Of a stretch of 41,461 bases of DNA, positions 4,893-10,915 are shown in pieces. Made by a program: the position numbers and the translations under genes. The notes below the pieces were generated by a model. The model saw nothing but the letters and a program-made list of their open reading frames with translations, made no database searches and was not told the DNA's origin. The stretch spans positions 26,908-68,368 of the forward strand of contig PKYW01000067.1 of NCBI GenBank assembly GCA_003132805.1, in the 5' to 3' direction. Every line of letters begins with the position of its first letter. Within the stretch, counting starts at the first letter, position 1. Source of the stretch: Candidatus Dormiibacterota bacterium (GTDB lineage Bacteria; Chloroflexota; Dormibacteria; Aeolococcales; Aeolococcaceae).

Positions 4893-6281
4893 TCAGTGGT
4901 GGAAGCGCTGCCGCTCGTGGTGCGGCTGCGTGGCGGTGGTATGTTTCAACAGGCTGACCTCGCGTTTGAGGTCGTCGACGAGGAGGTCGGCGAGGTCACG
5001 CGAGAACCCGTTGCGCACCACCACCCGGAGCACGGACGTGTTTTCGAGGTTGGCGCACAACGAGTACGCGGGCACCTGCCAGCCGCGCTTGCGCAGGGCG
5101 TCGGAGACGTCGTACACGCTGTACCCGGCGGCGGGATCGACCGTGAACGCGAAAACCGGAAGCTCATCCCCGTTGGTGAGCAGGTGGAACGGACCGAGCT
5201 TGGCGATATGCGCAGAGAGATACAGCGCAGTGTCCTGGCACGCCTGCTGCACGCGCCGGTATCCCTCGAAGCCGAGGCGGATCAGCTGGTAGTACTGCGC
5301 GACCACGTTGGATCCCGACCGTGAGAAGTTGAGCGCGAAGGTCGGCATGCTGCCGCCCAGATAGTTGACATTGAAGATGAGGTCCTCCGGCAGCGCCTCG
5401 CGATCCCGCCACACCACCCAGCCAACGCCTGGATACACCAGGCCGTACTTGTGTCCGGACGTGTTGATCGAGACCACCCGGTCCAGGCGGAAGTCCCACT
5501 CCAGATCGGGCTGCAGGAACGGCGCGATGAAACCGCCCGAGGCTGCGTCGACGTGCACCGGGACGTCCGGGCCTCCGCTCGCCGCCAATTGGTCCAGTGC
5601 CGCGGCGATCGCCTGCACCGGCTCGTAGCTGCCGTCCTGCGTCGACCCGAGGACCGCGACAACCCCGATCGTGTTCTCGTCGCAGAGCGGGATCGCCGTT
5701 TCGGCCGTGAGGTGGCGACGCTCACCCTCCATCGGCACGTAGCGGGGCTCGACATCCCAGTACCGGCAGAACTTCTCCCAGCACACCTGCACGTTGATGC
5801 CCATCACCAGGTTCGGCGTGTCGACCGGCAGTCCGGCGGCGCGCCGTCGCTCGCGCCAGCGCCATTTCAGCGCGAGTCCCGCGAGCATCGCGGCTTCGCT
5901 CGAGCCGGTGGTGGAGCAGCCCACCCCTGCATGCGCTCCGCGGGCATGCCAGAGCCCGGCGAGCATGTGGACGCAACGGCGTTCGAGCTCCGCGGTCTGT
6001 GGGTACTCGTCCTTGTCGATCGCGTTCTTGTCGAGCGACTCATTCATTAACCGCCGTGCCTGCGGATCCATCCAGGTGGTGACGAAGGTCGCGAGGTTGA
6101 GGCGCGCGTTGCCGTCCAGCATCAACTCGTCGTGCACGACCTGATAGGCGGTATCGGGCGACAGCTCTCCATGGGGCAAGTGGAGCTTCGGGACTGCCTG
6201 GGTCTCGCCCGCCCGGGCATAGAGGGGGTTGATCGCGATGGTCGCGTCGGCGGCGTCGTGGGCGCGGTGATGCAGCGGCAT
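4893..6281 (-). CDS. gadB: Glutamate decarboxylase
   Basis: 462 residues, near-identical in length to E. coli GadA/B (466). It carries the group II PLP decarboxylase signature with the Schiff-base lysine at Lys278 in INTSGHKYGLVYPGVGW and the upstream HVDAASGGF motif. It converts glutamate to GABA and CO2, consuming a proton, usually in acid resistance or GABA metabolism. It is the third gene of a minus-strand operon, starting 3 nt after the unknown gene at 6285. No glutamate/GABA antiporter (gadC) is seen here, so GABA export, if any, is encoded elsewhere. Confidence 0.93.
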   Translation of the reverse strand: MPLHHRAHDAADATIAINPLYARAGETQAVPKLHLPHGELSPDTAYQVVHDELMLDGNARLNLATFVTTWMDPQARRLMNESLDKNAIDKDEYPQTAELERRCVHMLAGLWHARGAHAGVGCSTTGSSEAAMLAGLALKWRWRERRRAAGLPVDTPNLVMGINVQVCWEKFCRYWDVEPRYVPMEGERRHLTAETAIPLCDENTIGVVAVLGSTQDGSYEPVQAIAAALDQLAASGGPDVPVHVDAASGGFIAPFLQPDLEWDFRLDRVVSINTSGHKYGLVYPGVGWVVWRDREALPEDLIFNVNYLGGSMPTFALNFSRSGSNVVAQYYQLIRLGFEGYRRVQQACQDTALYLSAHIAKLGPFHLLTNGDELPVFAFTVDPAAGYSVYDVSDALRKRGWQVPAYSLCANLENTSVLRVVVRNGFSRDLADLLVDDLKREVSLLKHTTATQPHHERQRFHH

Positions 6282-6284
6282 GGG

Positions 6285-7436
6285 TCAGCCGGGCGATGTG
6301 ACGTCGTCAGGGTTTTTCGCAGCCACCTCGCCTGCCAGCGGTGCCTGCCTCCCGGTCAGCTCGGTCGCCGGACGCGGGGTGGTCGGTACCCCGGTCAGGA
6401 GGGAATCGCCGTCATCGCCGCGCATCAACTGATGTTGCAGCATCTCCATCTCGTGCTCGAGCGCCACCTTGGCGTCGATGACGCGAAGCAGCTCATCGCG
6501 CAGCAACGCGGCCTGGTGGGCGGGGTCGGGGTCATGGGTGATCGCGGCAATGCGCTCCTCCTCGTGCTCGCGCCAGCGGATGGCGAGCAGGGTGGCGGTC
6601 CCGTCCGGGGGGCGATAGGAGCGAGCGCCGGCCTCGACCACACGGCGAATGATGGCAGGCCCGCTCGACGTGTTGAGGCGCTGGCGGAGGTGCAGGGGAT
6701 GGCGTGGCGGCGGATCGGCGAGCCGGAGCCGCGGCCAGTAGATGCGCACCGCGCCGTCGTAGACGGAAAGCATGCCCAGCCTTCTGGTGAGGCGATGCGA
6801 ATCCTCGACCCGAGGCATGACGAAGACGTGCGCGAGTCCGCAGAGCTCGCGGGCGGTGAGCGCCGGGTTGCCGGCGTCGACTGGGTAGACGCCATCCTCC
6901 TCCTTGATGGCGCTGAACAGCACCACCGGGAGACGCCGGCCGGGGTCGAGGAGACACGACTGCACGAACGAGTCGATCTGCTCACTCCCCACGATCGGCT
7001 CCGGAATAGCACGCAGACGTTGCGATCCGGCAGTCGCGCCGTCGCTGACGAAGTCATGAAGCAGCGCGACAAGTGGTGGCGCCAGCGGTGACGGCGGAAC
7101 TCGAAGATGGCGCAGATCCTGTTCCACCGACACTCCGACATCGACGGTTTGACCGGTGAGCACCGCGTCGACGGTGGTGAGCCAGAGCAACGATGGATCC
7201 CACTCGTCCGCGCGTTGCACGGTCACGCGACACAGTGATCGGCTACCGCTCTCGCAGCGAATCACGTGAATTTCCTGACCGTTTTCGATCAGCTCGCCCT
7301 CGGACAACACGTCCGCGGAAGTCTTAAGACCACTCGTTGCCCACTGCCAGGTTCGCTGAGCCGCCGCTTCGAAAAGCGCAGCTCCGGCCACCCCCTTATG
7401 GTCGAGGGTGAGTCTCGCCCCGAGGGCGCGGAACAT
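6285..7436 (-). CDS. Unknown protein between two PLP decarboxylases
   Basis: 383 residues, no family I can name. The N-terminal third reads like a beta-rich domain (RLTLDHKGVAGAALFEAAAQRTWQW). The centre holds LAHVFVMPRVEDSHRLTRRL followed by a VYDGAVRIYWPRL motif, resembling an alternating strand/helix core. Residues about 300-345 (HQAALLRDELLRVIDAKVALEHEMEMLQ) look like a coiled coil. The tail is low-complexity and polar. No signal peptide or membrane helix. It lies 6 nt after the aromatic decarboxylase and 3 nt before gadB, so it is translated from the same transcript. A regulatory or scaffold role for the decarboxylases is only a guess. Confidence 0.65.
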   Translation of the reverse strand: MFRALGARLTLDHKGVAGAALFEAAAQRTWQWATSGLKTSADVLSEGELIENGQEIHVIRCESGSRSLCRVTVQRADEWDPSLLWLTTVDAVLTGQTVDVGVSVEQDLRHLRVPPSPLAPPLVALLHDFVSDGATAGSQRLRAIPEPIVGSEQIDSFVQSCLLDPGRRLPVVLFSAIKEEDGVYPVDAGNPALTARELCGLAHVFVMPRVEDSHRLTRRLGMLSVYDGAVRIYWPRLRLADPPPRHPLHLRQRLNTSSGPAIIRRVVEAGARSYRPPDGTATLLAIRWREHEEERIAAITHDPDPAHQAALLRDELLRVIDAKVALEHEMEMLQHQLMRGDDGDSLLTGVPTTPRPATELTGRQAPLAGEVAAKNPDDVTSPG

Positions 7437-7442
7437 TGCGCT

Positions 7443-8918
7443 TCATCCTACATCGTCGATGGCACCTCGCAACGCCGCGATGATGCCGAGCACATGCCGC
7501 TGGTCCTGACGAAGGTTGCCGAAGGCAACGCGAATCGCGTAGTCACCGCGCAACTTCGTGTGACTCACGAAGAATCGTCCGGCGCTGTTGATTCGCTCGA
7601 CGACACGCTGATTCAATGAGTCGAGCGTTCCCGGATCATCGAGTCCGGGAGGATGCGCGCGCAGGCAGACGACACTGAGCGGTGCCGGTGCGAGCAACTC
7701 GAAATCGCGCTCAGCCTCAACCCAGCGCGCGAGCGCCGACGCATACTCGCAGTGCTCACGGATGCGCTGTGCGAGCGCGTCTGTGCCGAAATGGCGGATG
7801 ACCATCCACAGCTTGAGCGCGCGCATGCGACGGCCGAGCGACGTGCCGTAGTCCATGAGATTCGGGGCATCCTGCTCGGAGCCGTCGGTGGTGGTGAGGT
7901 ACTCGGGCACGATCGAGAAGGCGTCACGAAGCACGTCCGGCCGACGCGTCCACAACACGCTGCAGTCAATCGGCGTGAACAGCCACTTGTGCGGGTTGAT
8001 CACGATCGAGTCGGCTCGCTCGGCGCCTTCGAGCACCCAGCGCAGCTCTGGCGCGATCGCCGCAGAGCCGCCGTACGCCGCGTCGACGTGCAGCCAGAGG
8101 CCATGCTGTTCACAGAGCGCCGCGATTGCGGGAAGCGGATCGACGCTGGTCGTCGACGTCGTTCCGGCCGTGGCCACAACAGCGAACGGCCTGATCCCGG
8201 CGGCCATATCCTCGAGGATCGCCTGGCGCAGCGCCACCGGGTCCATGCGGAAGCGTTCGTCGACCGGGATCCGGCGGAGTCCATCGCGGCCGGCACCGAG
8301 CACGATGCCGGCCTTCTCGACTGACGAGTGTGCCTCGGTCGACGCGTAATACCGAAGGCGGGGCAGCTCCGGGCGTCCGGTCATGCCGAGCTCGCGAATG
8401 CGAAGGTCGGTCTGCGCTTCGCGCGCAGCTGCCAGCGCGTAGAGCGTGCTCGACGATGCGGTGTCGTTGATCACCCCGAAGAGTGGCCGGGGCAGGCCGA
8501 CCATCTGGCGCAGCCAGTCGAGCGTCACCTGCTCGAGCTCCGTCGCCGCCGGAGCGGTGCGCCAGAGCATCGCGTTGACATTGAATGCAGCGGCGATCGT
8601 CTCCCCGAGGATCCCCGGCGCCGACCCGGTCGACGCGAAGTAGGCCATGAATCCCGGCGACTGCCAGTGCGTTGTCGCTGGGACCAGCAATGCGTCGATG
8701 TCGGCGAGGACCGCGTCGATCGGCTCGCCCTGCTCCGGCGGCGATCCGGGCAGCCCTCTGCGTACCGATCCCGGCGCGGCCTGACTCAGCACCGGGAAGT
8801 CCTCGATGTCCCGAAGGTAGTCAGCGGTCCAGTCGGCCACCCGTCGCGCCGCCTGCCGGTAGGCCTCGGGATCCATGTCTCCGGTGTGCCGAGCGCCGGT
8901 ATCGATGTCGCCAGTCAT
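7443..8918 (-). CDS. Aromatic-L-amino-acid-type PLP decarboxylase
   Basis: 491 residues of the group II pyridoxal decarboxylase family (DOPA/tyrosine/tryptophan decarboxylase type). It has HWQSPGFMAYF near residue 85, the HVDAAYGGSA motif that holds the cofactor ring, and the PLP lysine Lys311 in INPHKWLF. Expected reaction: amine formation from an aromatic amino acid, with CO2 release. The exact substrate is not readable. ATG 8918 is the longest start; an alternative ATG at 8876 (MDPEAYRQAARR), preceded by GGAGA, would match the usual family N-terminus better. First gene of the operon with the unknown gene and gadB. Confidence 0.9.
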   Translation of the reverse strand: MTGDIDTGARHTGDMDPEAYRQAARRVADWTADYLRDIEDFPVLSQAAPGSVRRGLPGSPPEQGEPIDAVLADIDALLVPATTHWQSPGFMAYFASTGSAPGILGETIAAAFNVNAMLWRTAPAATELEQVTLDWLRQMVGLPRPLFGVINDTASSSTLYALAAAREAQTDLRIRELGMTGRPELPRLRYYASTEAHSSVEKAGIVLGAGRDGLRRIPVDERFRMDPVALRQAILEDMAAGIRPFAVVATAGTTSTTSVDPLPAIAALCEQHGLWLHVDAAYGGSAAIAPELRWVLEGAERADSIVINPHKWLFTPIDCSVLWTRRPDVLRDAFSIVPEYLTTTDGSEQDAPNLMDYGTSLGRRMRALKLWMVIRHFGTDALAQRIREHCEYASALARWVEAERDFELLAPAPLSVVCLRAHPPGLDDPGTLDSLNQRVVERINSAGRFFVSHTKLRGDYAIRVAFGNLRQDQRHVLGIIAALRGAIDDVG

Positions 8919-9001: not shown

Positions 9002-9007
9002 TAGACT
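9002..9007 (+). promoter_or_regulatory. -10 box of the CBS-citrate synthase gene (leaderless)
   Basis: TAGACT, then 6 nt, then GTG 9014; no Shine-Dalgarno. No convincing -35 box at the right distance. Confidence 0.45.
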
Positions 9008-9013
9008 GACACC

Positions 9014-10594
9014 GTGACCGCCTCACTGACCGTCGCTGATGTCATGCACAAGCCGGCGGTGGTCGTGCCGACCTCCATCACCCTCGCCGAGGCTTCGGTG
9101 ATCCTCGACGGCGCAAACGTTGGAGCTGCAGCCGTGCTCGATTCGCAAGGCCGGCTGAAGGGGATGATCAGCGAGCGCGATCTCCTCCGTTCGGTCGGCC
9201 ATGGCATCGACCCGGGCACCGCAAAGGTGGAAGAGGTGATGACCAAGGACCCGGTCACGGTGTCGGTCACCGACACGGTGGAGAAGGGGCTCGAGGTCTT
9301 CCGCGAGCGGCGCTTCCGCCACCTCCCGGTGATGGACGGTGATCGTGTCGCCGGCATCCTCTCCATCCGCCATGTGGTTCGAGTCGCGCACATCGAGGAC
9401 GTCCAGCCGGCCGGGTCGGCTCCTCCCGCTCTCGCACCACGAGGACTCGAGGGCGTCGCTGTCGCGGAGACCTCTGTCGGCGACGTGCGCGGCGAGGAGG
9501 GTTTCTTCCACTACCGCGGCTACAACGCCGTCGAGCTCGCTCGCCGCTGCTCCTTCGAGCAGGTGTGGCACCTCCTCGTCGAGGGCGAGCTGCCCGACAA
9601 CGCCCAGCTGAAGAAGTTCACCAAGCTTGCAGTCGAGGCTCGGTCGCTCCCGGACTCGGTCGCGGACATGCTGCCGCGGATCGCGGCGCTGCCCGGGTAC
9701 ACGCCGCTGATGGCGCTGCGCTCGGCAGTGTCGATCGCCGGGGCCGCTCTCGAACAGAAGCCCACCCTCGACATTCCCGCGGAGGAAGTCCGCAAGGAGT
9801 GCCTGAAGATGGCGGCGATCGTCCCGGTGCTGCTCATGCGCCTGCACCGGCATCACCTCGGTCTCGAGCCGGTCGAACCGGATGCGGACCTCGGTTATGT
9901 GGGCTCGTACATTCAGATGCTCACCGGGGAGCGACCGCACGACCGCGCGATCCGGGCACTCGAGCAGTACCTGATCCTCACCATGGACCACGGCTTCAAC
10001 TCGTCGACGTTCACCGCCCGGGTGATCACCTCGACGGGGTCGGACATTGGCTCGGCACTCACGGGAGCCATCGGTGCGCTGGCCGGTCCACTCCATGGTG
10101 GCGCGCCGTCGCGAGCGCTCGCGATGCTGGATGCGATCGGCACTCCCGATAAGGCCGAGGAGTACCTGCGTCATGAGATCTCCTCCGGCGAGCGCCTGAT
10201 GGGCTTTGGTCACCGCGTGTACAAGACCGACGATCCGCGCTCGACGCTGCTGCGCGAGGTCGCCATCGAGCTCGGTGGTGACCAGGCGGAGTTCGCCGTC
10301 CAGGTGGAGCGGACCGCGTTGCGCGTGCTCAACGAGCTCAAACCGGGCCGCCGTCTGTACACCAACGTGGAGTTCTACGCCGGCGTGGTGATGAACAGTG
10401 TCGGCATTCCGCCCGACATGTTCACGCCGACATTCGCATCCAGCCGTACCGTCGGCTGGACCGCGGCGATCGCTGAGCAGGCCGCCAACAACCGGCTCAT
10501 CCGGCCGTCGGCGCTGTACGTCGGACCGCAACCTCCGCGGCCACTGCCCGACGGATACGGCGCGGCAATCAAGAGCGCTGAACTCGCGCGCTGA
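9014..10594 (+). CDS. CBS-domain/citrate synthase fusion
   Basis: 526 residues, about 140 longer than a bacterial type I citrate synthase. Residues about 8-65 and 72-128 form a tandem CBS pair (VADVMHKPAVVV...GMISERDLL; VEEVMTKDPVTVSV...RHLPVMDGDRVAGILSIRHVV). CBS pairs bind AMP/ATP or related ligands. From about 140 to the end is citrate synthase with His326 (MDHGFNSSTFTAR), His361 (GPLHGGAPS), His400 (MGFGHRVYK) and the acid position in NVEFYAGV. That acid, Asp in the best-studied enzymes, is Glu453 here. The family condenses acetyl-CoA (or propionyl-CoA) with oxaloacetate; 2-methylcitrate synthase is an alternative. One uninterrupted frame, start GTG 9014 supported by the -10 box. Likely monocistronic. 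Confidence 0.9.
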   Translation: MTASLTVADVMHKPAVVVPTSITLAEASVILDGANVGAAAVLDSQGRLKGMISERDLLRSVGHGIDPGTAKVEEVMTKDPVTVSVTDTVEKGLEVFRERRFRHLPVMDGDRVAGILSIRHVVRVAHIEDVQPAGSAPPALAPRGLEGVAVAETSVGDVRGEEGFFHYRGYNAVELARRCSFEQVWHLLVEGELPDNAQLKKFTKLAVEARSLPDSVADMLPRIAALPGYTPLMALRSAVSIAGAALEQKPTLDIPAEEVRKECLKMAAIVPVLLMRLHRHHLGLEPVEPDADLGYVGSYIQMLTGERPHDRAIRALEQYLILTMDHGFNSSTFTARVITSTGSDIGSALTGAIGALAGPLHGGAPSRALAMLDAIGTPDKAEEYLRHEISSGERLMGFGHRVYKTDDPRSTLLREVAIELGGDQAEFAVQVERTALRVLNELKPGRRLYTNVEFYAGVVMNSVGIPPDMFTPTFASSRTVGWTAAIAEQAANNRLIRPSALYVGPQPPRPLPDGYGAAIKSAELAR

Positions 10595-10690: not shown

Positions 10691-10915
10691 ATGCTCATCG
10701 GCATGATCCCGGCATTCTTCCCCGCGTTGGTAGCCCTGGTGAGGTCGTGGACCGCTCCCGGCAACCGGCGGCGCGATGACGAACGTGGCCAGGGGCTCGT
10801 CGAGTACGGGCTCATCATCGTCCTGGTCGCGATCTTCGTGATCATCGTGGTCGGTGTTGTCGGACACCAGACGAACAACGTCTTCTCGAACGTCAGCAAC
10901 GGCCTGAACGCTTAG
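10691..10915 (+). CDS. Flp-type (type IVb) pilin
   Basis: 74 residues. The mature core begins at a prepilin-like site: DDERG followed by QGLVEYGLIIVLVAIFVIIVVGVVG. This Gly-x-GLVEYxLI pattern followed by about 20 hydrophobic residues is the Flp/Fap pilin signature. The N-terminal leader of about 33 residues is longer than usual; it contains a hydrophobic patch (MIPAFFPALVALV), and a start at ATG 10703 is also possible. Flp pilins are cleaved by a TadV-type peptidase and assembled by the Tad machinery for adhesion. No tad gene is near, so this is an orphan pilin locus. Confidence 0.85.
   Translation: MLIGMIPAFFPALVALVRSWTAPGNRRRDDERGQGLVEYGLIIVLVAIFVIIVVGVVGHQTNNVFSNVSNGLNA

Follow-up and report, generated by a model that had tools for sequence, protein, structure and literature searches.

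The window, the whole stretch of 41,461 nucleotides from a Candidatus Dormiibacterota bacterium that was analysed here, carries a gene in which a tandem pair of CBS domains precedes a citrate synthase in one polypeptide. The enzyme is known and the sensor module is known; their combination, with a conserved single site, appears to be undescribed. We propose, with a probability of roughly 0.58, that the product is a CitA-like citrate synthase under allosteric control by an adenosyl nucleotide, with AMP or ADP against ATP as the likeliest signal. Citrate synthase feeds the citric acid cycle and is one of the control points described in textbooks; the fusion, if this proposal is true, would be a simple, testable link of energy charge to that cycle, kept over deep divergence in two phyla. 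Most of the lineages that carry it are uncultured, and their central metabolism has been read from sequence alone.

The gene occupies positions 9014-10594 of the forward strand and is open for 526 codons (526 aa), from a GTG at 9014 to a stop at 10594. An in-frame TAG lies 12 bases upstream (9002-9004), so the start at 9014 is forced and no earlier one is possible. A Pfam search of the window protein found CBS (PF00571) in two tandem stretches (87.8 bits, cut-off 24), followed by Citrate_synt (PF00285) at residues 144-499, which spans profile positions 1-357 of 357 at 378 bits, above its cut-off. CBS1 covers about residues 4-62 (9023-9199) and CBS2 residues 72-126 (9227-9391; Pfam match 72-124), and an interdomain linker of about residues 126-143 (9389-9442) leads to the citrate synthase domain (9443-10510), all on the forward strand. 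The open frame and the Pfam matches bear out the first-pass annotation, which had described two CBS domains and then a complete citrate synthase in a single frame. An assembly or frame artefact, or a chance arrangement, is ruled out by the forced start, the recurrence of the fusion at 102 loci (see below) and the large contigs on which it lies, for example of 3.0 Mb (locus L102, genome G402) and 2.96 Mb (L082). A promoter and terminator scan found none.

The full-length AF2 model (55 sequences) reached a pLDDT of 84.8 and a pTM of 0.70, with confident CBS and enzyme cores, including a high-confidence beta-alpha-beta-beta-alpha fold for CBS1 and a CBS fold for CBS2. It was uncertain at the linker and enzyme N-terminus (residues 126-164, with pLDDT <50 at 126-136 and 140-164), as expected for the monomer of an obligate dimer. 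The best PDB fold for the full model, and the top match for the citrate synthase domain, was 2c6x, the structure of Bacillus subtilis CitA, which is also the closest solved sequence (309 bits).

The window protein probably works as a citrate synthase and belongs to the short CitA-like branch. In an alignment of 92 fused and unfused rows, the catalytic histidines His326 (9989-9991) and His400 (10211-10213, in a GFGHR motif) are invariant (92/92 rows each). The catalytic acid, Glu453 (10370-10372), stands in an N-V-E sequence also present in B. subtilis CitA; the position is Glu in 59/59 fused and 30/33 unfused rows, and Asp replaces it only in the canonical outgroup (L112-L114). The alignment agrees with the earlier placement of Glu453 at the catalytic Asp position, and also with the view that Glu should be compatible with activity, since the clade and its unfused relatives have it throughout, as does B. 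subtilis CitA; judged by these rows, Glu here is ordinary and marks the whole CitA branch, B. subtilis CitA included. An enzyme inactive owing to Glu453 was dropped as a candidate on the same grounds. Among NCBIfam models, the protein passed the citrate synthase subfamily NF009005 (341.3 against a cut-off of 332) and failed both methylcitrate synthase equivalogs (NF010636, 310 against 479; NF009006, 286 against 550) as well as the canonical GltA model TIGR01798 (201.6 against 485), with Glu453 and no Asp. Its best NCBIfam model by E-value was TIGR01800, ‘2-methylcitrate synthase/citrate synthase II’. Activity is likely because the catalytic residues are invariant, the Glu is shared with B. subtilis CitA and NF009005 is passed.

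The pocket of a CBS pair combines an adenine motif, h-y-y'-h'-P, with a ribose motif, G-h-h'-T/S-X-X-D/N, and in CNNM one CBS domain contributes strand beta2 to the cavity and the other its last strand and its helix (PMC6429129). In the window protein one predicted site, S1, is complete, pairing the CBS2 adenine motif FRHLP (residues 101-105; 9314-9328) with the CBS1 ribose motif GMISERD (residues 50-56; 9161-9181). The other, S2, is degenerate: the CBS1 strand VGAAA (residues 36-40; 9119-9133) lacks the proline of the adenine motif, which appears at position 40 in 0/102 rows, and the CBS2 ribose motif GILSIRH (residues 114-120; 9353-9373) has, in Dormibacteria, exchanged the ribose Asp for His. 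Across the 102 rows, position 120 is D in 70, H in 27, Q in 3 and E in 2. Of 49 distinct motif sets, 44 have a complete S1, the deepest fused branch (L143, L144, L149) included, and none has a complete S2; the five S1 exceptions (L013-L017) all belong to one genus of family f2.

Conservation follows the predicted pocket. The invariant CBS columns in alignment A2 (G50, E54, R55, D56, R102, H103, P105, V106, G114 and R119) are largely putative pocket residues and not a surface patch. The CBS module is under purifying selection and is less constrained than the enzyme. Its dN/dS is 0.04-0.09 within the genus of the window's genome (enzyme domain, 0.03-0.05) and 0.24-0.40 across genera (enzyme domain, 0.13-0.21), and its mean distance is 0.52 where that of the enzyme domain is 0.34. 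A CBS-only model (pLDDT 91) matched the fold of PAE2072 with AMP (TM 0.87); further matches were 3fhm, AcuB with AMP/ADP/ATP/Ap4A, CBSX2 with AMP and MJ0100 with MTA/SAM, and complexes with AMP, ADP or ATP were the commonest among the ligand-bound ones. With S1 complete and conserved and the nearest folds bound to AMP, ADP or ATP, sensing of an adenosyl nucleotide is the best reading of the module, in line with the adenine nucleotides named in the first-pass annotation. The idea of the CBS pair as a sensor holds for S1 and has to be narrowed for S2, which is degenerate in every lineage, so that only one site looks functional.

A domain search for CBS upstream of citrate synthase in the same frame, which had been suggested as a check, returned 102 fetched loci (partly overlapping, with some genomes represented twice), alongside 49 relatives lacking CBS. 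Protein searches placed the fused form across the order of the window's genome (families f1 and f2 of Dormibacteria) and in many Acidimicrobiia, whose proteins are 50-55% identical along the full length. It also occurs in a deep branch on the actinobacterial side, and among 396 sampled genomes of the Actinomycetota-side phylum about 20 full-length matches came up. The fusion is an old, conserved form, and the soil and water bacteria that share it, from two phyla, are mostly uncultured.

In a maximum-likelihood tree built from the citrate synthase domain alone (92 rows; 59 fused, 33 unfused), every fused protein falls inside one clade with support of 100/94. Unfused Chloroflexota enzymes, B. 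subtilis CitA and canonical citrate synthases lie outside it, and unfused actinomycete ‘CitA-like’ proteins nest within it. The fused/unfused label switches six times, a history best explained by a single gain followed by some five losses, although change counts by themselves are no proof of polarity. The inferred losses comprise two in Dormibacteria (L048/L052 and L011/L012/L053/L055/L060), L141, L142 and a large-genome actinomycete clade that includes Glycomyces/Phytomonospora. When an Acidimicrobiia fused-CBS query was run against five whole Dormibacteria genomes, the CBS of the fused gene was the only strong match; the next best reached an E-value of 2.6e-6 in one genome (G045), and none passed in the others. 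Moreover, CBS distances track those of the citrate synthase domain (Mantel r 0.81, with 0/2000 permutations as high; 0.79 within Acidimicrobiia). The sole strong CBS match and the co-varying distances support common ancestry of the fusion, and independent fusions in the two phyla are disfavoured by the CBS cross-search and by a tree with six changes and all fused rows in one clade. A stand-alone CBS gene serving the unfused Dormibacteria relatives was also considered and rejected, as no CBS match was found elsewhere in those loci. Repeated loss of the module supplies natural controls for what the sensor adds, in the form of fused and unfused orthologues >70% identical in the enzyme domain. The L013-L017 proteins (genus g10, family f2) are fused, have lost the S1 motif, branch with unfused actinomycete enzymes and adjoin an HTH-citrate synthase gene; they were probably transferred from Actinomycetota and are probably decaying as sensors.

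The same type of neighbour recurs elsewhere. A divergently transcribed gene joining a MerR-type HTH to citrate synthase adjoins the fused gene at L075-L079, L084, L089, L090, L092, L099 and L013-L017, and the unfused gene at L145, L146, L148, L150 and L151, and this common neighbour supports orthology of fused and unfused members. In its own right, the MerR-type HTH fused to a divergent citrate synthase domain, seen at L077:3750-4901 (reverse strand) and at 24 other loci, is a candidate metabolite-sensing regulator (Citrate_synt match of 178 bits). Judged by arrangement, we take the HTH/CitA-like pair to resemble citA3/citA4 of S. coelicolor. That pair is SCO5831/SCO5832 (PMC12323332). The HTH-citrate synthase neighbour is absent beside the gene in this window, and beyond its presence in some lineages no gene order was conserved across both phyla; a function read from an operon was rejected accordingly. 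In Glycomyces (L103-L110), genes for a phosphate acetyltransferase (Pfam PTA_PTB) and an acetate kinase-like protein follow the unfused orthologue downstream, hinting at a role in acetate use.

Within the window, the gene directly downstream (10691-10915, forward strand) encodes a 74-aa Flp/Fap-type pilin (Flp_Fap, 36.5 bits), a frame missing from the larger ORFs called. On the other side, a reverse-strand block (4893-8918), transcribed away from the citrate synthase, encodes two pyridoxal-dependent decarboxylases, one of them a glutamate decarboxylase (TIGR01788, 657 bits), and a 383-aa protein that matched nothing in Pfam; several Dormibacterota loci again have this protein next to the decarboxylase. 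Further downstream (10991-32366) extends a large molybdoenzyme region. It encodes MobA-like, FdhD and MoaB-like proteins, a CoxE-like VWA protein and two sets of [2Fe-2S] and molybdenum hydroxylase subunits, which points to enzymes of the CO dehydrogenase type.

Whether such a sensor could set entry into the cycle depends on the other citrate synthases of the cell, counted here as Citrate_synt-family genes, that is, homologous enzymes. The fused gene is the only one found in four Acidimicrobiia genomes (G402, G400, G500 and G566), with the CBS module confirmed by sequence in G500 and G566, and in G310 (89% complete). Most relatives also carry a canonical citrate synthase, among them the same-genus G159 (92%). 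In the window's own assembly, too, no citrate synthase gene besides the fused one was found; since that assembly is 82% complete and G159 has a canonical second copy, sole-enzyme status is not claimed for it. Aconitase-family genes are present in G000, G310, G159, G402 and G400. The coupling of TCA entry to energy charge put forward in the first-pass annotation would therefore hold only where the fused enzyme stands alone (G402, G400, G500, G566) and is weakened in most relatives, in which the canonical second enzyme may carry the main flux. If the proposal is true, the sole-enzyme Acidimicrobiia would read energy charge directly onto TCA entry.

In the mechanism we envisage, AMP or ADP, competing with ATP, would bind the single intact site S1, formed by the CBS1 ribose and CBS2 adenine motifs. 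Binding would reshape the CBS disc within the putative enzyme dimer, and the change would travel along the short linker into the citrate synthase domains, altering the ease of the domain closure they need for work. The likeliest sense, in which the sign is a guess, would be that AMP and ADP relieve or activate the enzyme and ATP restrains it, so that carbon enters the cycle at low energy. The fold neighbours and the precedent of AcuB make AMP or ADP against ATP the likeliest signal. AcuB is a CBS protein that senses energy charge and controls acetyl-CoA synthesis, which its AMP-bound form shuts down at low energy charge (PMC13121692). The module is not essential to catalysis, as about five losses and the broken S1 retained in L013-L017 indicate.

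Other CBS modules have SAM, c-di-AMP, NAD(H) or Ap4A as their ligand, or none at all. The ribose and adenine motifs of S1 would suit any adenosyl compound, and SAM/MTA-bound MJ0100 is among the fold matches, so the pair might instead report a second messenger or the redox or methyl state (through c-di-AMP, SAM, NAD(H) or Ap4A) and not energy charge. We consider this unlikely, given the predominance of AMP, ADP and ATP complexes among the ligand-bound fold matches. Within this group c-di-AMP stays a candidate since its cyclase (DAC) was found in six of the seven genomes searched, the exception being the window's own, 82% complete. DarB is a homologue of Listeria CbpB. CbpB is a c-di-AMP-binding CBS-domain protein (PMC8549634), and a B. 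subtilis precedent is given in PMC8822347. CoA or acetyl-CoA would be an unlikely ligand, as the 3'-phosphate of CoA should interfere with ribose binding by Asp56.

The CBS pair could also serve mainly in assembly or scaffolding (oligomer, filament or partner docking), with nucleotide binding secondary or vestigial. Citrate synthases often change assembly (PMC11615384), S2 is degenerate everywhere, the module has been lost repeatedly and genus g10 keeps the fusion despite a broken S1; against these points, the conserved residues sit in the predicted pocket and the deepest fused branches retain an intact S1, which makes a mainly structural role improbable in our view. It is more doubtful still that the main substrate is propionyl-CoA, with the enzyme a 2-methylcitrate synthase and the CBS pair regulating propionate use. 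The TIGR01800 match and the PrpD-family genes of G310, G402 and G400 fit such a role, but the protein falls far under both methylcitrate equivalog cut-offs, passes the citrate synthase subfamily model and has no recognised prp genes nearby. Furthermore, PrpD is absent from G500 and G566, where the fused enzyme is the only citrate synthase, which argues against a methylcitrate role there. Gating by AMP or ADP against ATP is the reading we favour.

No description of a CBS-citrate synthase fusion, and no series of characterised proteins of this architecture, was found in the literature searched, although the architecture is probably already in protein databases as automatic annotation. The term CBS is absent from a survey of citrate synthase assembly (PMC11615384). 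The known relatives of the enzyme each share part of its make-up. B. subtilis CitA (2c6x) has the same Glu for Asp and is the best sequence and fold match, without an N-terminal CBS pair. Actinomycete CitA-like proteins (NF009005, SCO5832 type) nest in the fused clade and share the HTH-citrate synthase neighbour, again without the pair. GltA type II shares the Pfam domain and the reaction, and is the second copy in many of these genomes (L112-L114); unlike the window enzyme, it has Asp at the catalytic acid, no CBS and only 31-35% identity. The HTH-fused citrate synthase (SCO5831 type) likewise joins a regulatory domain to the citrate synthase fold, with a DNA-binding N-terminus and about 28-33% identity to the citrate synthase part of the CBS enzyme.

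The modes of citrate synthase allostery otherwise known are NADH control of hexamers and direct ATP effects. NADH control of E. coli GltA depends on hexamers (PMC11615384). More tentatively than the gating itself, we suggest that an AMPK-gamma-like adenylate sensor in cis could be a third mode, acting directly in some Acidimicrobiia, with the unfused actinomycete CitA proteins as its sensor-losing descendants. In IMP dehydrogenase the Bateman domain is inserted in the catalytic barrel, whereas the window CBS pair is N-terminal. That enzyme, of a different pathway, also has a CBS pair in the same polypeptide and is controlled through it allosterically by nucleotides (PMC4660370). AcuB (a CBS-ACT protein of Bacilli) and AMPK-gamma/MJ1225 have the same fold and pocket motifs as the window CBS pair, and in AcuB the sensing of adenine nucleotides is likewise tied to acetyl-CoA metabolism (PMC13121692). 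These proteins act in trans, whereas the window CBS pair, with its one intact site, would act in cis on an enzyme of central metabolism.
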